From NCBI GenBank assembly GCA_014871385.1, contig CM026423.1, positions 7,292,967-7,356,966 of the forward strand: a stretch of DNA of 64,000 nucleotides, read 5' to 3'. Source of the DNA: Ceratodon purpureus (taxonomy: Eukaryota; Streptophyta; Bryopsida; Pseudoditrichales; Ditrichaceae). A model generated the notes under the pieces. The model did not search any database, was not told the DNA's origin, and was given only the letters and a program-made list of their open reading frames with translations. Shown piece after piece: positions 2,193 to 62,535 of this stretch; position 1 is the first letter of the stretch; each line of letters opens with the position of its first letter. A program made the translations under genes and the position numbers.

Positions 2193-2669
2193 TCAGTGCC
2201 CATCCTCCTCAACAAACTTCTTGTAACTCTCAGCGCTCAGCAACGACTCCACCTCCGCTGGATCCTTCACCTTCACCTTCATCATCCACCCCTCCTGGAA
2301 CGGGCCCTGGTTCACCAACCCAGGCGACTCAGTCAGCTCGCTGTTCACCTCCACGATCTCCCCAGACACGGGCGCGTACACATCGCTCACGGCCTTCACA
2401 CTCTCCACGCTCCCGAACGACTCGCCCTGCGCGACGGACTTCCCGACCTCGGGCAGATCCACGTACACGACGTCCCCGAGCGCCTCCTGCGCGTGGTGCG
2501 TGATCCCCACCACGACGGTGTCGCCTTCCAGCTTCGCCCACTCGTGCGACTTGGCGTACCGGAGCTCGTCCACGATGGTGGCCGTGGAGAAGCGCTGGAA
2601 GAAGGGCGTGAGCGCTGTGCGGAAGGCGGACGCCGATCGGGCCGCCAGAGGGCGGAGGTGGTGCGCCAT
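2193..2669 (-). CDS. GCSH: Glycine cleavage system H protein, mitochondrial
   Basis: This is the lipoyl carrier of the glycine decarboxylase complex. Its lipoyl arm shuttles the aminomethyl group between the P, T and L proteins in the mitochondrial matrix, the core of photorespiratory glycine breakdown. The 158-residue product begins with an Arg/Ala/Ser-rich, acid-free stretch (about residues 1-30) typical of a mitochondrial presequence. The mature part starts near YAKSHEW and holds the lipoylation motif GSVESVKAVSDVYAPVSGE, with K92 as the lipoyl lysine, then the NQGPFQEGWMMKVK segment and a C-terminal SYKKFVEEDGH. The start is the only ATG in frame (MAHHLRP); the frame upstream lacks another Met. 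The length matches the plant family. There is no intron in the coding region. The gene has GC-rich codons, and GC-rich sequence continues upstream to about 2900. Confidence 0.96.
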   Translation of the reverse strand: MAHHLRPLAARSASAFRTALTPFFQRFSTATIVDELRYAKSHEWAKLEGDTVVVGITHHAQEALGDVVYVDLPEVGKSVAQGESFGSVESVKAVSDVYAPVSGEIVEVNSELTESPGLVNQGPFQEGWMMKVKVKDPAEVESLLSAESYKKFVEEDGH

Positions 2670-15721: not shown

Positions 15722-18700
15722 ATGAAGCGGAAATGGGAGCAGGAACGGGCCGGGACGAGCCATGCGGTGATGGACGACTTCGACGTGTTTCTCAACCACC
15801 GCGGGCCCGATGTCAAAGCCACTTTCGTGGCGCATCTGGAGGAAGCACTCCGATGCGCAGGGTTCCGCCCGTTTCTGGACGCTCGGTCTCTGATGAAGGG
15901 CAATCCCGCTCTCCAGTCCATCGACCAAGCGCTGGATATGGCCAATGTTCATGTTGCGGTTGTGTCCAAGAGATACGCGGAGTCGAAGTACTGTCTGAAG
16001 GAGCTGGTGGCCATGATGAGGAGCGGCAAACCGGTGATTCCCGTGTTCTACGATGTGGAGCCTGTAGACTTGCGGTGGGTGGAGAATGGGCCGTTTGCTG
16101 GAGCCTTCGAAAAGCACAAGTCGAGGGGGAGAACGGCGACGAAACTGCAGGAATGGAGAGATGCTCTGCAAGCGCTGTCAGAAGTCACAGGGTTTCGCTC
16201 CGCTGATTACAAACGGTAAGACCCAATTAAGCTACGATGCGCGCAACGTGTGTGTTCTCCATTCGGTGTAAGATGTGGTAACCGAAAAAATTCTTCTTGG
16301 TATCGTACACAGGCCAGCTTGCTACTTTTAGATGCCCTGCTTAATTTACTTCGAAATCTGTACTCAACTGCTACTATTCCATCTGGATGGAGATTTAGGG
16401 AATGAGACATTGGTTTCTGAGAAATGTTGCTGAGCACTCGACACTTAATATTGTGTGTGCATCTGGTCTCTTGTGCAGCGATGAAGCGCTGCTGAAGCGG
16501 GATGTAGTGAACGAAGTATCACGCCTCACACCTTCAAACCAGCCCGTCGAGGTGGAACAGTTCAGAGTTGGATTGAAGGGCTCGGTCAAGGGATGCATTC
16601 AGATTTTGGAGGACATGGGTGCCGGGCCAGGGATGTTGGGGCTTGTGGGAATGGGAGGTATTGGTAAGACCACTCTCGCAAGAGAAATCTACAACCATTT
16701 TGTGGCGCAGAGGAGGTTCAAACACATGACGTTTTTGGAGATTCGTCGTGATTCTTCAACATCTAATGTTCAGGTTAGACCGACCCAGAGTATGGATTTG
16801 CGAAAACAGTTGTTGTGGGATCTCCTCTCTGTTCCAGACAATTCTTCGAAGTCCAATTACAGCTCTTGGTTCCAGAAGCTATCTACCTTGGGACCGGTGT
16901 TTATTGCAGTTGATGATGTCCACAAACTTGGCCAGTTTGAAGAGCTCATACCCTTCACATCCGCCTTGCATCCAGACAGCCGGATCGTAGTCACATCTCG
17001 TGATCGAGGAGTTTTGAACACTATTGCAGGAAAATCAAAATTCAATCACCATGTGTTTAATGTTTGCCCCTTGGAATGGAAGGAGGCAAATGTGCTTTTC
17101 AATTGGCATGCATTTCAAGCCAAGGAAGCGGCAAAGGGATATGAAAGTGTAGCTGAGGATGTTGTGAGAGCTTGTAGCGGTGTGCCACTTGCGCTGAAGG
17201 TGGTTGGATCAAGCTTGTTTGGCATGCAGTTGGATGGAGATCTGGAAACTATATGGCGAGAAGCAGTGATTGAGTTAAGGAAAAACAGGGATGTGATGGA
17301 TGTTTTGCGATGGAGCTATGATAGTCTTCCAGAATCGGAGAAACACATGTTTTTGGATATCACTTGTCTATTTCATGGAAAGAGTAAAGAAGAGGCTTTT
17401 GCATATTGGGGAAGTTGCAAAGATTGCATGTCATGTAGGGGTGTACCCGCACGTCATATTTCATTGAGGAACCTTATCAACAAAAACCTACTTATGTCAA
17501 GCCCAGATTTTCGTCGAAGAGGTGTATTTAAGGTGCACGACCTCTTGAAAGAGCTAGGTCAAGAGATTGCAGTGAAGACAAAGAGACACTTTGTGAATTG
17601 TAGAGATGCTGAGGCAATTGTTATCAAGAATCAAGTAAGTTCTTTTTACTATCATATCTTTTATAAATTTAATGGTCCGGTGAAGTTTGAATATTTAAAT
17701 GAATTGGTCAAATATATAATTTCATCATATAGATAACTAATAAATGTAAGTGGTGAATCCTTAATTTCTTTAATTATAGCAAATTGTATGTAGTGAAAGT
17801 TAAAGAAGTGAGAGGAACAATTAAGAGAAGAAAGAGAGTATGATTGATATTATCAAATGTAAAATATCTTATGATTTTTTTCTATTTTTTCACTATATTT
17901 GTCTAAATTATAATATGCATGATCTGTGATGTAATTTATAAATGTTTTGAATACACTACATTTAAGTGTGTTAGATATTTTTTATTGTTTTGGATCACAT
18001 ATTGAAAATTAAAAAATGTTGAAATTATTTATGTTGCAGGGATCTGAGAACACCATGGGGCTATATTTAGAAGGAAGTAAAATTCAAGAATTTGAAGCTG
18101 AAAATTTTACAAGCATGCCAAATTTACATTACCTTCAATTGCCACGGGGATGTAAAGTAAATGGAGATTTTAGATCTATGCCAGGAGAATTGAGATGGCT
18201 TCGGTGGCAAGCAATGCCATATACACACATACCGACTGGGCTTAATCTTTCTTTACTTATTAAATTGGACTTTTCAAATAGTACAAATTTGGCAAAACTA
18301 TGGACAAAGTCGAACAACAGTTTGGAGGTATGTTTCAATATAGAATTCAAAAGATTGAATTTTTTTGTATTTATTGCTAAAAATCCCAAATCAAGAATTG
18401 GTTCAATATATGTAGAACATTCTATATTAAATATGGAGTGGAGTTAAAATGCATATCATATTATATTCATATCAATGTAGTACATGTTTAGTATCAAATT
18501 TGACATAATTTAGTGTTCATTTTAGATTAAACACATGTGAATGTATTATATAATATTAAAAAAATATTCTTCGTCGTCTATGATTATAATTAAATTTATT
18601 ATTTCAAGTATTTAAGTATTTTATTACAAATCAAAATCTTTGATTATCAACCATGATGAATGAATATCTTTATTACAATTTTAGAGGAACGTTCATTGTT

Positions 18701-20858
18701 TTAGTGGTCATGCATTGTTAGAAGAACATCCATGAACATAAACCAACATTGACATTTCAAATTACAATATCCATGTACTCTAACATGAGTCAAGAATAAT
18801 GCATTTAATTAGTAGGTTTGGCTAGAATTCTTAACCTTCATGGTAATAAAAAGATTTGTTGACTTGTGGATGTTGTGGGTGTCTCAGAGTTGCTCAAACC
18901 TACTTCACCTGAATTTGGAGGGATGCACATCCATCACAAGACTACCAGATTCCATGGGCCAATCTATACAAGTTTTGCGGCTGTCTTCTTGCGAGAAATT
19001 GGAAATGCTCCCACCATCCATCCAACATCTCAAAGGACTTAGATACCTTGAACTCCGTGCTTGTACAAGCCTGAAAGCTTTGCCGGATTGTATAGGTGCC
19101 CTGTCAAATTTGGAATTCCTTGATGCTCACGGTTGCACTTCGCTCCAGGCGCTTCCGACTTCAATTGGGCTTCTGTCAAGTCTGCAGGAATTATACATTG
19201 AAGCAAATCCAGGATGCCAGATATCCTCGGAGGATATTGGCATTGGCTCTGCTTGGACAAGGTTACAGGATTTGCGCTTAACGAATTGCTGTGGATTAGG
19301 ATCCCGTCTCGATTACGATGCAATGAAAAGCCTTTGGAAGCTAGTTTTGGAAGACAGTGCTCTCACCGAGCTTCCGGAGTCTATGATGGGGAAGTTAACT
19401 CGACTTCAATATTTGGACATTGAGTGTGAGAGGCTGCAATGCCTCCCAAACTCAATTGGCGATCTCAAAATGCTAAGAACCCTCTATCTGTGCCAATGCC
19501 ACAACTTGACGAGGTTGCCTAAAAGTTTGGGTGCAATCTCAAGTTTGGAGTGCTTGATTATTATGTGTTGCCCCATCAGGAAGCTCCCGAAGTCTTTAGG
19601 CTTATTGCCGAAGCTTCATCGCTTGTCCATAAGAGATTGCAAAAATTTGCAGAAGCTCCCGTCTTCCATCAGATTTCCCCAATCGCTCCAAGAATTCGAA
19701 TTCGTGAATTGTGGGAGCAGAGAGGCGATGGGGGCATCGTCAACCGGTTTGCAAGACCTTCTCGAGTGTGGTGCACTTGAAACTCTGAGAATTCAAGATA
19801 GTACTTTCACCGAGGTTGTGGAATCCTTGGGACAGTCAGTACCTCTTGACCAGTTGACCGTCGGTTGCGAGAGGCTGCAATGCCTCCCAAACTCATTTGG
19901 TTATTTGAAAAAGCTCCGAACCCTAGAGCTGTCCGGATGCCTGCACCTGACGAGGTTGCCAAAAAATCTGGGTGCAATCACAAGTTTGGAGTGCTTGATT
20001 ATTATGTGTTGCCCCATCAGGAAGCTCCCGAAGTCTTTAGGCTTATTGCCGAAGCTTCATCGCTTGTCCATAAGAGATTGCAAAAATTTGCAAAAGCTCC
20101 CGTCTTCCATTAGATTTCTCCAATCGCTCCAAGAATTCGAATTCGTGAATTGTGGGAGCAGAGAGGCGATGGGGGCATCGTCAACCGGTTTGCAAGACCT
20201 TCTCAAGTGTGGTGCACTTGAAACTCTGAGAATTCAAGATAGTACTTTCACCGAGGTTGTGGAATCCTTGGGACAGTCAGTACCTCTTGACCAGTTGACC
20301 GTTGGTTGCGAGAAGGTGAAATGCCTTCCAAACTCATTTGGTTATTTGAAAAAGCTCCGAACCCTAGAGCTGTCCGGATGCCTGCACCTGACGAGGTTGC
20401 CTAAAAATCTGGGTGCAATCACAAGTTTGAAGTGCTTGATTATTATGTGTTGCCCCATCAGAAAGCTCCCGAGGTCTATAGGCCTACTGTCGCAACTTCT
20501 AAGGCTGGAAGTGATTGGGTGCACGAATTTGGAGAAGCTCCCAACTTCCATCAGAAAACTCCATAGCCTCGAGGTGTTCGAATTGGAGGATTGTGGAAGC
20601 ATCGAGGCGATGGGGGCACTGATAACTTTGCAGGGCCTGCCAATCTGGGGAAGCACATCCATCACCGAGCTCCCCGCTTCCCTCAGGGGCATTGTGTCCA
20701 CTCTAGCTGTCTACTCGAACAGGTGGTCCTCCGTTTTTAGTTTTCGTGCCCGTTATTACGATACACTCCAAGTTGTGGAACAGGATAAGAGTGGTTTCTT
20801 GAAAGCTTGTCAGGACAAAGTAAGTGGTAAGATAGCATTGCTACGAGGTGTAAACTAG
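15722..20858 (+). CDS. TIR-NBS-LRR (TNL) intracellular immune receptor
   Basis: Four exons (15722-16215, 16479-17634, 18040-18327, 18888-20858) join in phase to 1302 residues, a full-length TNL. The first exon encodes the TIR domain (about 18-160, FDVFLNHRGPD), with E94 in YCLKELV at the position of the catalytic NADase glutamate. The second holds the NB-ARC: P-loop GMGGIGKTT (about 221-229), kinase-2 VFIAVDDV (about 304-311), RNBS-B SRIVVTSRDRG, CSGVPLALK (about 396) and a VHDL form of the MHD motif (about 516). The split of TIR and NB-ARC between exons is classic for TNLs. Exons 3 and 4 encode leucine-rich repeats of the C..L..LP type. Such receptors sense pathogen effectors and signal through TIR-made nucleotides. 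All switch motifs are intact, so the gene looks functional. An internal 441-bp duplication is listed separately. Confidence 0.94.
19430..20560 (+). repeat. 441-bp intragenic tandem duplication within the TNL LRR exon
   Basis: The block containing ttatgtgttgccccatcag occurs at 19561, 20002 and 20443, a period of exactly 441 bp (147 codons, so in frame). The first two units are almost identical over most of their length; protein differences fall mainly in the first 35 residues plus two single changes (P/L and E/K). The third unit matches for its first ~60 residues and then diverges. This indicates recent unequal crossing-over or gene conversion. Confidence 0.93.
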
Positions 20859-29473: not shown

Positions 29474-32400
29474 ATGGAAGGTTTGCAGCGCCGTGTGGCG
29501 ATGGGAGAAGGGGCAGCGGATGGGGGACAATGTGATGTAGGAGGAGCAGGGGTTCTGGGGCTGGAGGTGAATGTAGCGAAGCCTGACGGGGCACCTGACG
29601 GTTCCGAGGCCATGGTGGAGGATGCGAATTCATTGCGGATGCAAGTGGATGGGGGACAATGTGATGTAGAAGGAGTAGGGGTTCTGGGGCTGGAGGTGAA
29701 TGTAGCGAAGCCTGACGGTTCCGATGCCATGGTGGAGGATGCGAATTCATTTCGGATGCAGGTGGATGGGGGACAATGTGATGGGGTTCTCGGGCTGGAG
29801 GTGAATGTAGCGAAGCCTGATGGGGCACCTGATGGTTCCGATGCCATGGTGGAGGACGCGACTTCATTGCGGATGCAGGTGGATGGGAATGAAGGAGCTG
29901 GATCTGATGCAGGTGCTTCGTCTTGCGATACCATCGGGGCTCTAGGCGATGCTTGTTCTATGGGAAGGACAGAGCGGATTAGGGCAGACATTGGTACAGG
30001 CGACGATGATCAGATAGAGTCCTCCTTGATTTCGGGGTTCGAGGCACAGAATCCAGGAGTGGGAAGTTCGTCGCAGCCGGATTCTGAGGCCGATATTGAG
30101 GAGGGTTATGGTCATTTGTTCACGGATATAATGAAAATACAGTTGCGAGCCCAAATTCTGGTTTTAGGGGACCTTTTGTAAGTGACTTTTATCAAGAGTT
30201 TAGAGTAATATTTCATTCATGTCGTTGTGAATTATAGAAGAAATGATTCAAGTTTGAGTTTATTTCAATATTGCCCTGAGATTTGTGCTGTCAATGTGTT
30301 CTGTTAGTCTGGCATGGCCTTAGCAAACTCCCCGTGTTCATCAGTTCCCAAATTCGAGGTTCGCTATCAAAGGTTGATTAGCAAACTAGCTTCTTACCTA
30401 CGTCTATACGTCATGAATGGTGCCCTTACATGAACCTGTTTCTTGTTCTTTACAGAAAGGGGATTGCACCAAGCCCGGAATGGTTGGAAGAGGCTTGTCT
30501 GGAACCTGGCATAGGTGTGTTTCAAACCCTAAATATATTGTTGCAAATCCGTCAATTCATCTTATCGAATTTCACAGGGTTTTGTGAAGGTGGTTAGTTT
30601 CTGGTATAGCTGGAGTATTAAAGTTGTCTTCTCCCTAATTGATTCCTTTCCTTCAGGTTGATATTGGGGGTCTGTTGATGCAATAGATCTAAAAGAAGGC
30701 TCTCTTGGCTTTTATCTTGGCCCTTGCCCGGATTCACCTTTGTAATTTGTTGATTATCTTATATTTTCAATACTTCACATGGTTCTGAGCACTGTCATTT
30801 TAAAGTCCAACTCTGTTATCTTAACTTAGTTTTTTCATTTTCCTGTTTTATCTTCCTTTCTATGTTTCTCGTGGCTGAAGTGCTTTCAATGATGTTGCTT
30901 CACTTTGACAGGGGTTGAATATGCGCTTCCCGAGCCTCTGGATGCCCCACGTGATGTTCCACCTGAATCAAATTTGCAGAATTTGGAAGTTACAATGTCT
31001 CCATCTGCAGAGTCGACAGATCCACCTACTGTTACGACTGCAGGAAGACTCTCAAACCCAGAAGATCCTTCGACAAGTGGAAAAGATTTTCTATATATTG
31101 ATGATTTAGCACAGGAGAGGGATGTTGCACCCTCAGGGCAACTGATGATCACATACGACGATACAACGACAGCCAGATCGAACCCAAATACGGCGGAAAA
31201 TATTTCCCAGGCCACTGATACTCTTGTTCATGAGAATGATAAGCATCTTGATTTGGCACAGGCTAGTGCGCAGGATGCACTAACAACTGCCACCTCCGCC
31301 CTTGCTCAGAGCCACATGGTGTGGGCCCGCCTTCATTCCCAAAACCACTCAGAAGAAGGAATAGCAAGGGATGCTCGAATAGCTTCTGTTGCTGCTACTG
31401 TTGCGGCTGCTGCTTCTGTTGCGAAAGCTGCTGTTGAGGCTGCTCGAGCAATTGCTGAGGTGTCAGTGGATGCCTTTATTCAAGCTGGTGGCTACCAGGC
31501 AGGTGATACCAGTTTGGCTCAGTTGGGCTCAACGAGATCAAAACCGTTACAGGTACGCTTACGGAATTGCAATACTCTTCTAAGCAAGTTCGTATTGGCA
31601 AATAAGTGTCGATATGGATATTTATTCATTTCACATACATGTTTCCCTGGTAATGAAGCAGAAATGAAAGAGTCTACTCTTTCCACTCGATGTTACAGGT
31701 GTTAATAGAAATAAGTATTCGAGATTTGTTTTGGAAAGTCTATGTAGTATTTGAGGGAAATGTGTTCGCATTGATCACATGCGTGTTGCATTAGTTCATG
31801 CTGATTGCAATAGTCGATTATGCAGATGCTATTTTCACTTGAGAGATGGTCCAGCTGATTGTGGATTAATTGCAGGTGGCTGGTTTGAACCAGTCTCTTC
31901 ACGGCAACACCAGGGAGAACACTTCTCAACATAGGACTGACATGGTGGAATCTGTTGTACAAGCTGCTGGAAAAGCAGCTGAAGCTGCCACACAGGCAGG
32001 AGTAGTTTTATCGAAGGCAAATCCATTGATACAAATGAGTGGTTTGAGTGAATTTTGGTCCCGAAAACGAAACGAGGGGAGTGAAGAGCATGAGCGCAAC
32101 GAATTTGGTGGAATAGATGAAGGTAATGGGATGGATGTGACTAATGAAGTGGGAGGATTTGGTGGACGACGCAAAGGAGATGCATCGAATGAAATAAACG
32201 CTGTCAATGAGGTCGGCGAGTTAGATGGAGGGAATGAAGAGGATGCGGCAGAGGAAATGGAAGATACTCAGGAAGAAGACACCGTATCTCAAGATATACT
32301 GAATTTAGATGACATAATGGGCGATGTACATGGAGGGGATATTGCGAACCAGGACTTCGCTGTAGAAGGTGATATGGTTGCGCCGAATGGAGACCAAGAT

Positions 32401-35400
32401 GGAACAGCAGCAGCGAATGAGGCCGAGGTATTTGTAGAGAATGGAGTTGGAATGGTGGAAGCGAATGGAGATGAAGATGTTGGAGCGAATGAAGTTGAAC
32501 TGGTTCCTGTCAATGAAGTGGCTGAAGCAATTGAACAGGAAAAGTATATTGGTCCAAGGTCAAGAAAGTCTAAACGAGGCAGAGGAAGAGGACGAGGAAG
32601 ATCTCAGGAAGCACCTAGCAGAGCGAAAAGATTGAAGAACTCAGTTGGAGCTTCGTCTGCCATTCCAGTGGCCCAAGCTCTGGAAAATGAAATGCACCAA
32701 GGTGAACCGGAAAGCCCGAAGAATGATGGGGATGCAAATGCAAGAAGTGAAGAACGTGGTGTCTTGATGAAAAATTCGACTATGAGCACTTCTGGGAAGG
32801 ATATATCTGATTCGGCCCCTCTCGAACCATATGGAGAAGACACACCTGCCTCAGCAGCCGCTCAAATCCCAGAAGATGAGATTCAAAGGAAGGACGATGC
32901 CCCGGAAAGTCCAAAGACTGTTAGGGGTGGAAACGCTAGAGGGAGAAAACGGGGTGCAAAGGGAATGGTAAGGACACCTGTGACCACTTCTAGGAAAGGT
33001 TTACCTCCCGCAGTCCCTGTCCAAGCTTCTTGGGAAGAGAGACCATCCCCAGCAGCTGCTCACTCTAAAGAGAATGACATGGAGGAACAGGGTGGTGTAC
33101 CGGAAAGTCTGAAGACTGTTAGGGGTGGATACACGAGGGGGAAGAAACGTGGTGGGAGGCAAGTTGGAAGAACACTTCTGAGGATTTCTCGGAAAGTTCA
33201 ATCTCCTACAGTCTCTGCCCCTTCGGGCGAAGATCAACCTGCCTCAGCCGCCGCTCGAACTCCAGGGAAAGAGATGCTAAGAGAGGACGACGGACGAGAA
33301 ATTGCAAAGACTGTTAGGGGTGGATACACGAGGGGGAAGAAACGTGGTGGGAGGCAAGTTGGAAGAACACTTTTGAGGATTTCTCGGAAAGTTCAATCTC
33401 CCACAGTCTCTGCCCCTTCGGGCGAAGATCAACCTGCCGCAGTCGCTGCTCACATTAAAGAGAATGAAAAGCAGGAAGAGGACGACGTACGGGAAAGTCC
33501 AAAGACTGTTAGGGGTGGATACACGAGGGGGAAGAAACGTGGTGGGAGGCAAGTTGGAAGATCACCTTTGAGCACTACTAGGAAAGATCTATCTTCCACA
33601 GTCTCTGCCCCTTCTGGAGAAGATCGACCTGCCTCAGCCGCCGCTCGAAGTCCAGGGGAAGAGATGCTAAGAGAAGACGAGGTACGGGAAAGTCCGAAGA
33701 CTGGTAGGGGTGGATACATGAGGGGGAAGAAACGTGGTGGGAGGCAAGTTGGAAGATCACCTTTGAGCACTACTAGGGAAGGTGTACCTCCCGCAGTCTC
33801 TGCCCAAGCTTCTTGGGAAGCGATACCATCCCCAGCATCTGCTCACACTAAAGAGAATGAAATGCAGGAAGAGTACGATGTACGGGAAAGTCCAAAGACT
33901 GGTCGGGGTGGATACATGAGGGGGAAGAAACGTGGTGGGAGGCAAGTCGGAAGATCACCTTTGAGCACTACTAGGGAAGGTGTACCTCCCGCAGTCTCTG
34001 CCCAAGCTTCTTGGGAAGCGATACCATCCCCAGCATCTGCTCACACTAAAGAGAATGAAATACAGGAAGAGGACGATGTACGGGAAAGTCCAAAGACTGG
34101 TCGGGGTGGATACACGAGGGGGAAGAAACGTGGTGGGAGGCAAGTTGGAAGATCACCTTTGAGCACTACTAGGGAAGGTGTACCTCCTACAGTCTCTGCC
34201 CAAGCTTCTTGGGAAGAGAGACCATCCCCAGCATCTGCTCACACTAAAGTGAATGAAATGCAGGAAGAGGACGATGTACGTGAAAGTCCGAAGACTGGTA
34301 GGGGTGGATACACGAGGGGGAAGAAACGTGGTGGGAGGCAAGTTGGAAGATCACCTTTGAGCACTACTAGGGAAGGTGTACCTCCCGCAGTCTCTGCCCA
34401 AGCTTCTTGGGAAGAGAGACCATCCCCAGCATCTGCTCAGACTAAAGAGAATGAAATGCAGGAAGAGGATGATGTACGTGAAAGTCCGAAGACTGGTAGG
34501 GGTGGATACACGAGGGGGAAGAAACGTGGTGGGATGCAAGTTGGAAGAACACCTTTGAGGATTTCTCGGAAAGTTCAACCTCCCACAGTCTCTGCCCCCT
34601 TGGGCGAAGATCAACCTGCCTCAGCCGCTGCTCTCACTAAAGTGAATAAAATGCAGGAAGAAGACGATATACGGGAAAGTCCAAAGAATGTTACGTGTGA
34701 GAACGTAAGTGGGAAAAAACGTGGTGTGAAGAAAATGGTGAAGACACCTGTGAGCACTTCTAGGAAAGATGCACCTCCTCTTTCCGCAGCAGATGATTGC
34801 AGTCCAGAGAATGGAATGCAGAGAGAGGGTGATGTTTCAGAAAATCCGAAGGTCAGGGGTGGAAGCGCAAGAGGGAAAAAACGAGGTGCAAAGGAAATTG
34901 AAAAGACACCGGTGAGCGCATCTGGGAAAGGCACAGCCGAGCGGGACTTGAGAGAGCCTGAAAGTGACAGGAACATACGAGATGTTCCAGAGCACGCTGT
35001 GGAAGGGTCTGCAGTGGAGGTGCGTGAAATCTGGTTAATATTCAGATTGACAGCTAGGACATATGGACCTCTTTTAGACAATACATGGTCCATGAATCTG
35101 CTTGAAAGTTTCAATCTTGCTGATTTGATTCTGTTTGCTTGCAGGTCATGACTGATGAAGTAGGATTGAGAGGTGGCTGGTTCTCAGGCACAGTTCTTAA
35201 GATGAACCCAAATGAAGCCTTTGTGGAATTACACGATCTTCTTACTGATGATGGTCAGTGCTCAAAACCTCCTCAATCTTCAGATATGCTGCTTACTACT
35301 GGTATCGATTCGTTTTGCTTAGTCACACTATAGTAGCGTGTTAGCAATTCCGATGGAAGTACAGCAAGCCGATAGGATACCTACCTCCGGGTGCTTTCAG

Positions 35401-44400: not shown

Positions 44401-45118
44401 TACAATGAAAATATGGTTTTGTTGATATTTTTTCCAAATGCTGATTGGGAACCATAATTTTTTTCAAAAGTAGCAATAAGATATGAATTTTCACCATAAG
44501 ATATGAATTTTCATGTTATTAAAGTAAAAACAATACAGATAGAAATTTTCATTCAATTTTTAAAATTATTCAAACATATATAACATTCTTATAGACAATA
44601 ACTTATAATTGAGAAGGTTTTATTATTCAATATTCTAACTTCCAACACATGGATATATACTGGCAAGATTCAATTGTTGGTTTCACATGAAAAAAATAAA
44701 AAATATTACTACTATGATCTTCCAATAGGATTCTTTAAAAATTATTCAAAAAATTTATTAAAGAAATATTTCCTACACAAATTATTCTATTTTTGTCGGT
44801 TCATAGATAATTACATTTGTCTCTTTGCTTCAAACGGTATTAAACACATCCGTTCATTTTTCAATGCAACTCTTCATTTTTTTATGCGGAGTAAAGATTG
44901 GTTATTTGGAACCCGTAGCATAGTGTAAATCATGTCTTTAGCATTTTCTAAACAAATCATAATTTGACGTTTTGTGCCGCTTGGCATAGACCTTTCAAAG
45001 TGTCTTTTGAAAATATACAAATGAGACTCTTCACAAAATAAATGTATCTTTCTTCCCTACTTAGTTTCTTATGTTGAGTTTTAAGTTCAATCTAGATTTT
45101 TAGTTAAATCTGTACAAC
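41497..45118. other. Gene-poor interval
   Basis: No recognisable gene. A 90-codon ATG frame at 42652-42924 (plus) overlaps another frame and matches no family. From about 44450 onward the sequence becomes very AT-rich. A near-20-bp direct repeat (ataagatatgaattttca) lies at about 44484-44515. Confidence 0.5.
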
Positions 45119-45541
45119 ATGGCTAGTATGAAACGTTCTTTGATTCGTGATGCTATGGTCCACATGAAACAACGAAATGGTGCTAGTTTTGCCCAAATTC
45201 GCAAACACCTCGAATCCAACTATGGAAGCAAATTGGCTGTTACAAATAAAAAAATGTTGAGCTCTGCATTGAGAGGTTTAGTGCAATCTGGATCTGTGGA
45301 AAAGAAAGGTCCAGTGTACAAACTTGGATTAATTGGAACTATGAATCGTGCTGCAAAGGAAAATGAAGACATGGAAGTTCCTGGACGCCGACGTCGCAAG
45401 CTTCCAACAGGTTATTGTAAAACACATCATTTTCGTCATAAAGCCGGTCGTCGTCGAAGAAGACATAGTAGACGAAGACGACGTAGTCGGCGAAGACGTC
45501 ATCATCGTAGAAGAAGACACCACAAAAGACGTCGTAGGTAG
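45119..45541 (+). CDS. Linker-histone-derived protamine-like protein (H15 winged helix plus arginine-rich tail)
   Basis: The single ATG-to-stop exon encodes 140 residues. Residues 3-70 form a linker-histone globular (H15) winged helix: SLIRDAMVHMKQRNGASFAQIRKHL, then KKMLSSALRGLVQSGSVEKKG and VYKLG. A short acidic linker (ENEDMEVPG) follows, then a protamine-like tail: residues 90-140 hold 27 arginines, and the last 30 residues consist of 22 Arg, 5 His, 2 Ser and 1 Lys. The normal Lys/Ala/Pro-rich H1 tail is missing. Bryophyte and invertebrate sperm protamines are known to arise from H1 in this way, replacing histones to compact the sperm nucleus. Expression in male gametes is therefore inferred. 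The serines within the Arg runs (S117, S123) fit SR-kinase control. A single Cys (C100) could cross-link. The gene lies alone in AT-rich DNA and favours A/T-ending codons, unlike its neighbours. Confidence 0.85.
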   Translation: MASMKRSLIRDAMVHMKQRNGASFAQIRKHLESNYGSKLAVTNKKMLSSALRGLVQSGSVEKKGPVYKLGLIGTMNRAAKENEDMEVPGRRRRKLPTGYCKTHHFRHKAGRRRRRHSRRRRRSRRRRHHRRRRHHKRRRR

Positions 45542-47423: not shown

Positions 47424-50400
47424 CTAAGCACTTGAGCAGGAACTCAAAGCTCCAGAAATGCCCTGAAGATAGCTGGGGCAACTGTGGTCGGAGATGATGG
47501 TCCTGGAAACAATGATCCTGCCAAACCGTTCCTTCGGATCCATGCCACGCACAACAACATACATCGGAGCAGATGATGAATCTTCACCTGAAGCAGCTTG
47601 CAGTGCTTTGGGAGAAGTGGGAAGCGACATCCTCCTCTCTCCATATCGTCTCAGTCGTTTGATGTGGTAGAGAACACCCGGGACATACAGACGGCGTCTC
47701 TCGAGCTCCTCCATGTTGGCTGAGGAGCCTGTTGCCACAGCCATCACGGTCTTATCGGCTATTGTGGACTCAGATTCTTCACCATCTGTTGTGGTGGTGT
47801 TTGTTTGGGATTGAGGAGCATGGGCAGTTTCGGACTGATCGATATCTTGCTGAGGTGTGGTTGTGACGACGTTGAGAGCACTTTCAGCTGCTATTTCGGT
47901 GTCTGGTACTCCGGTGCTGTCATTCTTCGTGGTTATGCCAACCTTCTCCGACACTGAAGCTGAAGCAGAAACTAGTTGATTTTTTTGGAGTTTGAAAGGT
48001 TAAATGATGAAAAAATAAATTGAAATGTTTTAAAGAAAATTTGCAGGAAGGGAAGTTTAAAGGGTCATGGCAGATGATTCCCTAATTTTAAGACAATCTG
48101 AATCACATGAGAATGCATAACCATGCATAAGCAGTAGAAAAGGGAAGTATATATGCATAACCGTGTACGTCTTATTTGGTGAGATTTTCTAAGGATGAAT
48201 CAAAATGGAACAACACTTGCCTGGTAGCAAGTTCCAGAGAAAACTTACGTCGATCTACAATAGACGCATTGCTTGATGAAGTAGATGCATAAGCTGTACG
48301 AAAATTGCCGATTTTCTGGAACAAAGCTGCCCCTGCAGCTTGCGCGCCCGTAGCTAGAAAGCTGCTACCTGTGGATAATATAGTGCCAAAACTGCCGTGG
48401 ACTTGCACCATTGTTTCCAGCAGCCTCTTTGTTGTTTGATCTGTAACGACTTGACTCCTGAAAGAGAATGACATTGGTGCTGCATGTCATCTATAATTCT
48501 CAATTTTTACAAGTAGTGGGTGTGATCAACAAATGCATTCCAGTTCGATATGAACATCTACGAATATTTTAGTAACTGTTGGTTTTACTCTTGCGGTGGG
48601 ATTTAGTTCAACGAAGTTCATTGAAAAGAACACTCTATAGCAGGAGTTGAGTCATCTGTTCAGCAAACTCCGTTGAACTAAATTCCACCCTCAAGTCTGA
48701 AACCCACAAGTGACAGGATACAAATGTCTACAATTTCCAATTTAGAAAAAGACCTGCCTGTGAAAGTACATACCAACTTGTGCCTAAGATTTCATTCCGC
48801 AATGCCTCGACTGCAGCTGGGCTTACTCGTGCCACAATATCATCCTGCTTCGAAATTCCATAATATGCATTAGGAGATATCCAAACCATCCAACATACTC
48901 TGTTCAGTTCGCACCAGATTTTTGGGTAGAAATTCAAATAAGTAGAGTTATATGGTTCTAGCAAACTTAAAGAGAGGAGTAAAAAATATGGAAGCATTGA
49001 TGGACAATTCAAACTAGGGTGCAAGTTTAAAGTAGCAATTGTAGTTCTAATTGACTCAGGAATACAGGACACAACCTGTAGGACAACGTTGCAGATGAAA
49101 CTGGAGGACTCTGCTAATTCTCGGTCAACACAAGGGGCGCATCCATAACCCCAACAGAGGATTTTAGACGAAGGGACCGAAGATTGTACTTTCGGCATGT
49201 ACCATCCCTCTGTAGAACGAATTATCATCGCCAGAAGACCTGCTGTTGCGGCTCCCAGTGAGTGCCCTGTCAAAACTAATCTGTAACCCTGGCACATGTG
49301 CATAAGCTTCTTGCATCAATTTGTTAGAACTTAAAAGTATTTGCTCAAAGCACTCAAAAACTTCTGTAAACCTCATCTCATAGTGGAAGGCAATGAAAGT
49401 ACGTAAGTTCTGGTGTATAATCGACAAAGCTGTAGATATATAATATGTAATATGAGATGTGAACCGGATATTTCTCGAGAAGACTTTGCAGTGTTTTCCC
49501 CTCATTCTCGAAAAGCCACCTCGCTGCTTCAAGCATGCCTGAGTGTGCAAATCTGAATCAGGAACAAATCTATGTTTACACAATCTCATAGAGACACCAT
49601 TGATCATAGAAATACCCTAATCAACAATAATAAGTGTACAACAGCAAAGAATTGACTCACCCTTGTAGAAATTGCTCGGTATTAGGATTAAGGTCGGTGA
49701 AAACATCTTGCTTCTGATGTGTCCCACGAATGGCCATAACAACACATTTCCGCGTGTGGTGGATTCCAATGAAGAATGCAGGTTTATGAACACCCGAGTT
49801 CGTTACCATCTTCACTAGATCCTTGTCGCTTAGCTGCAAATACCACAATCTACTCACATTCTTAACCCTAAACTCGACAATAAGAAACTCTAGAAACTCT
49901 AGAAACTATACCTACTGCCCCCTCCCTGAGTGTCACTATAAAAGGTAAAGAATATCAACTAAAACCATCAAGCTTAAAGCGGCAGGTATTTTCATTGAAC
50001 ATCAACAACCACAACAATCTAAACAGATCTAAACATCAAGCTACATTAGCTTATGTCTTGAGAAGTGTTACTTCCAAGATGGTTGCAGGGCCTTTGTTTT
50101 CATCATTATATGCAGCCTTAGACCAGCGCATCCATTCCAGCATTTCTTCTAACTCATCCCTACATCAAAAAACATGGCAAGTGAATCGTAGATTACAATC
50201 AAAAGTCATCACATCCAAGTTACTGTTGTATACATATCCAAGATTAGATCTGAATCAAACTATTAGCCACGAGGTTATAAAGAAGCACAATACTTTCAGA
50301 ACTTCAACGAAGTAGTGGAACGTGATCAAATTACCGATTCTTCACCGTAGTAGCATTGGTGATGGTATCTGTGGCACCGTTTAAGGCATGCAGATTGTAG

Positions 50401-59500: not shown

Positions 59501-62500
59501 ATGACAAGTGAAGATATTCCTCCAACCGGTGTATTCGTAACTGCCTCTTCTAGCTCAGAGTGGTATCAGCATTTGGAACGTCATGGTAGCTGCCTACAAC
59601 TCTATTCTCTTATGGTAAAGAAGCGCGAGTTGATTCATCAGCTGGGACCAAAAGGCATATCTGTTCTGCACAAAGGAGTGGAACATGGATGTGTCAAGTT
59701 GGTGAAGTTCATTTTAGTGAACATGTTTGATGATGTAGGTACTTGTACTTGTAAGGTGCATGGTCCAAATGATGCACGTCTGACAAGGGAGCAGTTGCTT
59801 CGTCAGACTTGTGAGGATGGGATCACGGCAGTGAACATAGCGGTGGTGAGTGGGAGTCCAAAGATGGTATTGCTTCTGAAATGGGCCATTGATAAGAACT
59901 TGGAAATTTTAGCACCAAGTGGAAACTTGTCACGGAAGGGTGAAGACACTCGCTCAGATGCCACTCGCTTGCTCATTCAAAGAGCCCAAAATAGGTTGAC
60001 AAGAAATGCATTACTGTTCTGCCAGAAGGAGTGGAACCTGGAAGGAGAAGACATTCGGCGTCTGTTTGAGGATGCAGTCTCGGAAGAGTCTATTCCTCCG
60101 GCACCCATGGATCCATGCCCTCCAGACACGGCGGAAGAAATTAGGAAAGAAACGTGCAATCTGAGCGTCAATGTTCCAGAAAGCAGTATAGTGGTTCCAG
60201 AAGTGAAAGATCATACGATTGATCATATGTACGAAGCTACTTCGAAGGAAAGTATCATGATTCCGAAAGTGTATGCTCTCATCGAACGTATACTTGCAAA
60301 TCCACCTTGTGTCCAAGAGAAGATCGACATGTTAATGGATGAGTGCAAGAAGAATGTGGACTTCGAGTTTGTACCAGTTCCACACGTCTTTCTGCACTTT
60401 CTTTTACATACCACATCCGTCAATGACCCACTTTCCTACAATGATAGTAGTCATGAGGAGATCTTCCAAACAATTGTGCGTGCGTGCTATGAGCATGACC
60501 GCAAGGAAGGAGGCAGCTCAGGGTCCATGGTGGCGACTCTGTTCAAGATTCTAGATCCCCGGGGTCGAACTATTCTTCATGCTGCTCTTGACAATACCCA
60601 ACCAGAAATTATTGTGAACCTCTTTTCTTGGATGGATGGATTGGATCTCGGAATGTCTCCGGAACTGATAGGAGATTGTGTGAATGCCAAGGATGGTGCA
60701 GGTCGCACCATTCTTCACTTCTTCTGCACTCATCCTGAATATATTTACTGTTACCGAAAGTTTGGGAAGGATCTAAGCCTATGTAACGTTTGGAATATGG
60801 AGAAGTTTGATTGGGATACGGAGTTGTCCCCACTTGTTCCCTTGGAATTGGACACATTGAAAAACTGGTGTTTCCCACTTTATCGGAAGAAGCCACTGAG
60901 TTTTCCAGCGGGCGACGTACGACCAATTCATTTGGCAGTAACATTCAATGCAGTACATCCATTTACAAACATTTATGCAAAACAGAAACGTACTCTCCAT
61001 TTTAATCCAAATAAGAGTTTTGATCTCTCTACTGTCGTCACTCCAAAGGATGGCATATACGCTTGTTTTGAATTTGGGCCATTACAAATAGCAGCATTTT
61101 TGGGAAGAACAACGATTTTAGAGGAAATTCTCAAGGTAAGATTATCTTTCATTACTCAAATTTCAAATGTTTTAATGTATGGTAAAATTGTTGTTTCCTT
61201 AAGCATGTCTTAGGTATTTTTATGAGTGCAATGCTTACAATATCATCATAAATGGATATTGGAAAAAAACTTGTTTTTTTGTATATTTCACTTTCGTAAT
61301 TGTAGGATCTATTATATACATAGAATTATTATTTTTATTGAAGAACTAAGAATGTAAAATCCACTAACAGTAAAAAGAAAAGTGGTATTTGATGTGGAAT
61401 AAGTAGATTGTAAGTTTTTAAAAGTAGAAGTGATATGTTTTTTAAGAATAAGGAATTTACTAATATCATTCTTTCGTATATACAGTGCAGGTCAAAAATC
61501 AAGACTATACATGATCTTGGACTTCGAAAGTGCCACAAAAACCATTTGCCAGCCATTCATTGTGCTGCATTATCAGGCCAAGTTGAAGCAATCCAAGGTA
61601 TTCTAAAATTTCCTGTATATGACCCTTTCATTCAGCACAATATCATTAGTGAGGAAGGAACTGGACCCTGTCTTAAGCCCAACATCTACACCAACGAAGG
61701 GACTGCTTTACACCTTCTTTTGCAGAGAAAGAATTTCAACATTACAGTAAAGATATTTCAAACCTTAGCTCAACTTCATGTACTACCCAATTCCAAAGCC
61801 TACGCACTTCTTAAAAATGAGTTTTCCAAACTTCACTTTGATAAACATCAATCAAAGAACTTTTCGGCCACCGAAATTAGTTGCATCAACCTCCTTCTCC
61901 AAGCTGGCATTGACATATGGACTCCTCATTGTGAAACTGGAGAACTTCCCAATCCTGGACCTATGGCTAACGACCAGGCAAGACAATGGTGGTATGACAA
62001 AGTTGAAACTGAAGTGGTGTCTCGGAAGACAACCGTTAACAATGCTTGCAATGCGACCTCGGTCATTGCCACATTGGTGGCCACTGGCTCCTTCATTGGG
62101 CCTCTCCAGCCACCCCTTGGCTGGGCAAGTGATGGTTATGTCCACACCAACCTCATCCCAATGCGGGTATACTTGGTGTGCAACAGCATGTCATTCTACT
62201 TCTCCATTGCAAGCATCCTAATGGCGGTCCTTCCTGCCATTCCCATGCCCAAGGAGTCCCTCTACGATGAGCTTTTCAGAAGTCAGAGATGCTTGAAGGC
62301 TGCAGTATTGTTGTTGCTGGTGTCCATCATCTGCATACTGATCAGTTTTACATCTGCCAGCATTGCCGTGGTATCTTCAGAGCGGCGTGATAAGCAGCTT
62401 GTTGGTGCTTGTATAGCGCTTGGATGGATAGTTTGCATAGCGGTGCTGGTGATATACATCATACGTTTGCTACGGATGTTGTTTCACAGGAATGATCGGT

Positions 62501-62535
62501 TTAGAAGGTGGTTTGCAAAGCATATGAGCTTTTGA
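59501..62535 (+). CDS. Ankyrin-repeat PGG-domain membrane protein (ACD6-type architecture)
   Basis: Two coding exons, 59501-61135 and 61486-62535, join in phase 0 to 894 residues. Ankyrin-like repeats spread over most of the protein: ISVLHKGVEHGCVKLVKFIL, GITAVNIAVVSGSPKMVLLL, GRTILHAALDNTQPEIIVNLF, GRTILHFF, FGPLQIAAFLGRTTILEEIL, then after the intron LPAIHCAALSGQVEAIQGIL and GTALHLLLQRKNFNIT. The C-terminal PGG domain begins near residue 726 (TTVNNACNATSVIATLVATGSF), with PPLGW in place of PPGG, and about four hydrophobic helices (about 735-757, 771-795, 815-840, 851-878) before a basic tail. Family members such as ACD6 are plasma-membrane or ER proteins that modulate immunity and cell death. 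The first in-frame ATG was taken as start; the frame upstream has only TTG codons. The repeats are irregular and separated by long spacers. Confidence 0.88.

Follow-up and report, generated by a model that had tools for sequence, protein, structure and literature searches.

Introduction

Protamines of liverworts reportedly arise from cleaved H1 histones of the male germ line, as the title of the 2019 work by D'Ippolito et al. has it, and Higo et al. are said to have described MpPRM, a protamine-like gene of Marchantia (GenBank LC102462, as given in PMC6290024). Liverwort sperm chromatin carries protamines and is devoid of histones, according to the available part of PMC9402228. PL proteins are described in the available text of PMC13148410 as a winged helix joined to a disordered C-terminal half with 30–50 Arg/Lys-rich residues. 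The same text reports cleavage of the C-terminal half from the protein in a liverwort and in some molluscs and tunicates, where this half is thought to finalise condensation. Papers on moss protamine genes do not appear among the matches listed in the open-licence literature.

Reported here is a candidate gene of this kind from the moss Ceratodon purpureus. It is situated in a 64 kb stretch of DNA, analysed as a whole and referred to as the window, at 7.29–7.36 Mb of contig C3 (25.2 Mb).

Results

The open reading frame and its predicted product

An intronless 140 aa frame had been read in the preliminary description at 45119–45541, and it is found exactly there, on the plus strand (Table 1). 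Five sense codons separate the ATG from the nearest upstream in-frame stop, and the frame begins a few residues ahead of the domain. The preliminary description also proposed a linker-histone winged helix joined to an arginine tail, with the lysine-rich H1 tails gone. Both points hold, with a Pfam E-value of 8e-10 for the domain, 22 Arg in the final 30 residues and 27 Arg versus 4 Lys in the tail.

Table 1. Positions in the window of the putative protamine-like gene and the segments of its product
Feature	Position	Strand	Details
Putative protamine-like precursor open reading frame	45119..45541	+	140 aa, one open frame, stop TAG; eight paralogs
Linker-histone winged-helix domain, residues 7–62	45137..45304	+	Pfam match E 8e-10; AlphaFold2
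Acidic linker ENEDMEVPG, residues 81–89	45359..45385	+	Sequence
Junction VPGRR, residues 87–91, candidate processing site	45377..45391	+	[VL]PxR in 9/9 members
Candidate mature protamine, residues 90–140, 51 aa, no acidic residue	45386..45538	+	Composition; cleavage predicted
Cys/His module LPTGYCKTHHFRH, residues 95–107, C-x2-H-x3-H	45401..45439	+	Aligned counterparts in L002–L004
Arginine core, residues 111–140	45449..45538	+	22 Arg/30; 2 Ser, Arg after each

Linker histone is the only Pfam family matched by the protein (residues 7–62; 39.3 bits, cut-off 22.4). The AlphaFold2 model folds residues 2–69 into three helices and two strands, with block mean pLDDT values of 89–92 for residues 11–70. 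A low-confidence helix follows at positions 71–84, after which the chain is unstructured; block pLDDT values of 44–54 across residues 81–140 mark a disordered C-terminal stretch. A fold comparison did not single out H1, as other winged helices score equal or better.

The 52 residues from position 89 to 140 consist of 27 Arg, 8 His, 4 Lys and 1 Cys among others, with no Asp or Glu. All six Arg codons are present in the tail (CGT 9, AGA 9, CGA 5, CGC 2, CGG 1, AGG 1), thus the nt sequence is no plain trinucleotide run, and this usage points to selection on the protein rather than to a simple DNA repeat. A weak 18-bp repeat is found inside the tail DNA at 45450–45502 (2.9 copies, 77% matches). 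Over the six frames of the whole 64 kb, 29 of 127,816 30 aa segments are stop-free and hold 12 or more Arg. Twenty-one of these start in the plus strand bin 45000–45499 and the remaining eight in the bin 2000–2499, four per strand. That the open reading frame is no chance frame follows from the presence of eight further genes of the same plan in the genome.

The window protein matches each of the sequence features in the published PL description. The lysine-rich N- and C-terminal tails of a somatic H1 are absent. A protamine in the strict sense has no folded domain; the primary product here contains a winged helix, and the strict label would fit the cleaved tail only.

The gene family

The whole C. 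purpureus assembly was searched (362.5 Mb, 151 contigs). The window protein as query yielded seven more genes of the same plan, and L007 as query yielded one further member, L035. When L035 was used in turn there was no tenth gene, only the same nine and a weak match at the L017 position. The family size is at least nine genes, the best candidates having been scored. Four loci are on contig C1, two on C3, two on C4, one on C12 and none on C6, and L005 and L007 are spaced about 5.5 kb apart.

Every member shows a single open frame with an ATG a few residues before the helix, then the domain, a short linker and the tail. The term intronless, applied to the window gene in the preliminary description, matches the DNA of all nine as judged from genomic sequence. 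The Pfam Linker_histone score is above the cut-off in all nine, L035 barely passing (23.8 versus 22.4 bits). Arg content is 26–59% in the eight tails counted; the tail of L035 contains 43 Arg and 36 His among 130 residues. Extra residues are found beyond the arginine core in L004, L008 and L035.

Divergence is high. With eight members compared, dS is inestimably high in 21 of 28 pairs, and the other seven show dS of 1.3–4.6 and dN of 0.27–0.80 (closest pair L006/L007, dN 0.27 and dS 1.99). Frames that stay open despite such divergence indicate real genes under constraint.

Presumably, the strain is female and contig C6 (110.5 Mb) is its U chromosome. With all nine genes off this probable sex contig and the strain probably female, expression rather than linkage to a sex chromosome would determine a sperm function.

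The junction between fold and tail

In the window protein the segment ENEDMEVPG (residues 81–89) and the segment GRRRRK (residues 89–94) lie between the fold and the tail, as first read, and a cut after G89 would yield the 51-residue fragment then predicted. The sequence [VL]PxR is found once per protein at the start of the tail in all nine members. An acidic residue is situated no more than two positions ahead of it in eight, the exception being L004. The combination acidic-[VL]PxR arises in 0.8–4% of shuffles of each protein, thus its weight comes from the shared position and not from one gene taken alone. The surrounding linker is variable in both length and sequence.

The [VL]PxR junction has the look expected of a processing site and is termed a candidate for one; a hinge, or a relic of common descent, are possible alternatives for its conservation. 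Cleavage of the PL-type precursor is given about an even chance on these sequence data.

Cys/His modules

Counterparts of the window module LPTGYCKTHHFRH are found by alignment in L002, L003 and L004. In L002 the module FPKGYCKTHRHYHRSRR flanks the arginine core at both ends. The two copies are equal at 17 of 17 residues, and nine of 51 bases differ, all nine synonymously (P ~4e-7 under random change; one Arg codon difference is a two-base change, scored as synonymous). This suggests selection on the module. L006 and L007 display another module pair, with a first copy HHHC...GHRHCPRR, also at both ends of the core. Between the two copies in L006 there are 11 synonymous changes and 15 that are not (P 0.036, mild constraint), and the first module of L006 differs from that of L007 by 9 changes that are synonymous and 4 that are not (P 0.0009).

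The spacing C-x2-H-x3-H is present in four of the eight tails tested (L001–L004), with shuffle P values of 0.019–0.072 each. It is thus weak in any single gene, and for this reason the case for the module rests on the L002 duplicate. No Cys is found anywhere in L005 or in the tail of L035. C-x2-H-x3-H was ruled out as a general family signature on this ground, and the module is neither general nor essential to every member.

Mammalian protamines 1 and 2 carry arginine clusters with Cys and His, as do some of the moss tails, and protamine 2 is a zinc-binding protein processed from a precursor. Neither has a winged helix, and their genes are unrelated to the moss family. Linking of moss tails through zinc or disulfides by way of the modules would be rather unlikely.

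Relation to H1 and other linker-histone-domain genes

Three ordinary H1 genes are found in the genome, L009 and L010 on contig C12 and L011 on C6. They show an apparent lysine-rich first exon and an intron right before MIVEAI, with splice sites as predicted, and their tails consist of Lys/Ala/Pro over more than 100 residues. The Pfam domain is common to these genes and to the family. However, the family is without the lysine-rich exon, the pre-domain intron and the lysine tail. With these three missing, the family looks to have started either as the second exon of H1 or as a copy of H1 without introns.

A tree of H15 domains had been proposed in the preliminary description. In a tree of 16 rows from this genome, eight members fall on one side of a branch (55/6). 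In a tree of 17 rows, with L035 and L038 added and the long-branched L020 omitted, the nine members group together, but weakly (71/36), and their monophyly is not established by either tree. L016, identical to L015, was omitted from both.

L011 (G000:C6:32141249-32141437) is an ordinary H1 gene on the 110.5-Mb contig taken above for the U chromosome. In the available text of PMC8000587, the U and V chromosomes of Ceratodon purpureus are each >100 Mb and ~30% of the genome. With L011 on a probable U contig, a V counterpart may exist, and H1 may be sex-linked in C. purpureus.

Further linker-histone-domain genes in the genome are L013, L017, L015/L016, L020 and L024. L020 (C3:17131700-17131984) and L024 (C12:5156786-5157058) are single-frame proteins of ~95 aa with an Arg-rich N-terminal start and no C-terminal tail. 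They share 42% identity and are possibly another sperm or germline set. L013 (C3) and L017 and L038 (C13, ~1.7 kb apart) have an Arg-rich stretch preceding the domain. L038, which matches weakly and falls short of the Pfam cut-off, is Arg-rich after the domain as well. These three group together and adjoin the protamine-like genes in the tree. L015 and L016 (C4:8338544 and 8391332) are identical 3,162-base loci 53 kb apart, whose product combines a linker-histone domain with a tail rich in Gly and Arg. Either the locus was duplicated recently or the second copy is an artefact of assembly.

Upstream regions

In Marchantia, MpPRM depends on DUO1, with the motif RRCSGTT, according to the available part of PMC6290024. 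By contrast, the 1 kb that precedes the window gene has no copy of this motif. The 1 kb regions upstream of the nine members contain three matches versus 2.1 expected, and 35% of simulations are as high; for eight members, without L035, there are three versus 2.0 expected, with 0.345 of simulations as high. The DUO1-motif result thus gives no support, but it is compatible with sperm expression through other factors.

Shared words of 6–8 bases were sought in the 500 bases before the nine members, with the 500-base pieces of the window as background. The best 8-mer, ATCAATTG, is found in three of nine (P 5e-6 uncorrected). Corrected values are ~0.02 over the 3,596 8-mers and ~0.04 over all 7,721 words tested. 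The case for ATCAATTG is weaker against simulated sequence of the same composition, where three of nine is reached in 1.9% of simulations (uncorrected). CAATTGA is upstream of five of nine, the window gene included (0.7% of simulations, uncorrected). The shared words are thus no more than borderline and were dropped as evidence.

Other frames in the window

A 1069-codon frame at 31942–35151 (+) contains ~9.6 copies of a 198-bp unit of the GRGGYTRGKKRGGRQVGR type, a repeat rich in basic residues. At E 0.001 the frame has no match in Pfam. A plant immune receptor gene is represented at 15722–20858 (+) by successive TIR, NB-ARC and leucine-rich-repeat frames. The window also contains a glycine cleavage H protein at 2193–2669 (-), a piece of a class 3 lipase at 48728–49303 (-), and ankyrin and PGG frames at 59501–62535 (+).

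Discussion

By analogy, the liverwort H1-derived protamines appear to be the closest known kind. Taken by description, Marchantia polymorpha resembles C. purpureus in being a bryophyte with a linker-histone precursor that has a protamine part, with several precursors, and with cleavage reported. The C. purpureus family may differ by its nine members, its acidic-[VL]PxR junction and its Cys/His modules, with Marchantia again compared by description only. The parallel with liverworts drawn in the preliminary description is thus supported in outline, at the level of description.

Animal PL-type proteins (molluscs, tunicates, spiders) are similar in that a winged helix is joined to an Arg/Lys-rich disordered tail, which in some animals is cleaved, as set out in the available portions of PMC13148410 and PMC11607694. 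In contrast, the moss family belongs to a plant lineage, has tails with far more Arg than Lys, and carries Cys/His modules. Independent origins of the moss and animal PL proteins from H1 would be the more likely course.

On sequence and structure prediction, the window gene most probably encodes a moss PL-type sperm nuclear basic protein precursor derived from a linker histone. This reading is favoured because of the linker-histone domain, the disordered Arg tail, the nine frames that stay open despite high divergence among the eight members compared, the conserved junction, the synonymous-only differences between the L002 copies, and the close fit to the PL description in the available text of PMC13148410. 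As to mechanism, where we infer sperm expression, DNA condensation, cleavage and cross-linking alike, the protein of developing spermatids would be anchored to linker DNA or nucleosomes by its winged helix, and its arginine tail would offset the charge of the DNA phosphates and aid histone displacement. Cleavage at the acidic-[VL]PxR junction would release a ~51-residue protamine to complete condensation, and the Cys/His module beside the arginine core might join adjacent tails by zinc or disulfide bridges. The wider proposal, that moss sperm DNA is packaged by multigene H1-derived protamines with a dedicated protease acting at the acidic-[VL]PxR junction and a cross-linked lattice evolved independently of that of mammals, is doubtful as a whole; in it, metal- or disulfide-linked Cys/His modules that flank the core on one side or on both would staple the tails together.

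In a variant of the PL-type reading, the full protein is an uncleaved sperm-specific H1 kept in sperm chromatin, and the junction is a flexible hinge. We regard this as possible, at somewhat under an even chance. [VL]PxR is present in all nine members though the linker varies in length and sequence, which argues for a cut, and liverwort precursors are reported as cleaved (D'Ippolito et al., 2019, by title). However, both the protease and the cut are assumed in the cleavage scheme, and the acidic residue before the junction is missing in one of the nine (L004). A sperm-specific H1 is described for a brown alga, and PL proteins are cleaved in some organisms only (available parts of PMC10858212 and PMC13148410, respectively).

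Alternatively, the window gene might code for a basic protein of the nucleus or nucleolus in ordinary cells, one that binds RNA or chromatin and has no part in sperm. The lack of a sperm-type promoter signal (the DUO1 motif, within 1 kb upstream) would be in keeping with this. Arg-rich tails with RS pairs are also found in RNA-binding proteins. Yet the sole Pfam family of the window protein is linker histone, and six of the eight tails counted are 46–59% Arg with at most one acidic residue, a level that to our knowledge is beyond what is usual outside protamines. Somatic H1 roles could be covered by the three canonical genes L009–L011, and a protein of ordinary cells is quite improbable. That an intronless copy of H1 has left a decaying pseudogene or a chance frame here is hardly credible. 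The single exon, compared with the apparent intron before the first helix in the three somatic H1 genes, would suit such an origin, but nine frames are open in the genome, dN is well below dS in the seven of 28 pairs with estimable dS, and the L002 module copies differ synonymously only.

With the PL-type reading preferred, the interpretation given in the preliminary description is likely in outline and partly supported; membership of a nine-gene family and the Cys/His module in the tail were absent from it. H1-derived proteins of the PL type had been described before in animals and liverworts, and the new points are the moss gene family, the conserved candidate cut site and the Cys/His modules.

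Among the open-licence matches listed, the H1-to-protamine route in bryophytes is represented by one liverwort. A nine-gene moss family, if true, would suggest a broader distribution of this route in bryophytes. The family would supply a candidate cleavage site defined by sequence, and it would raise the idea that plant protamines may use Cys/His cross-links as mammalian ones do.
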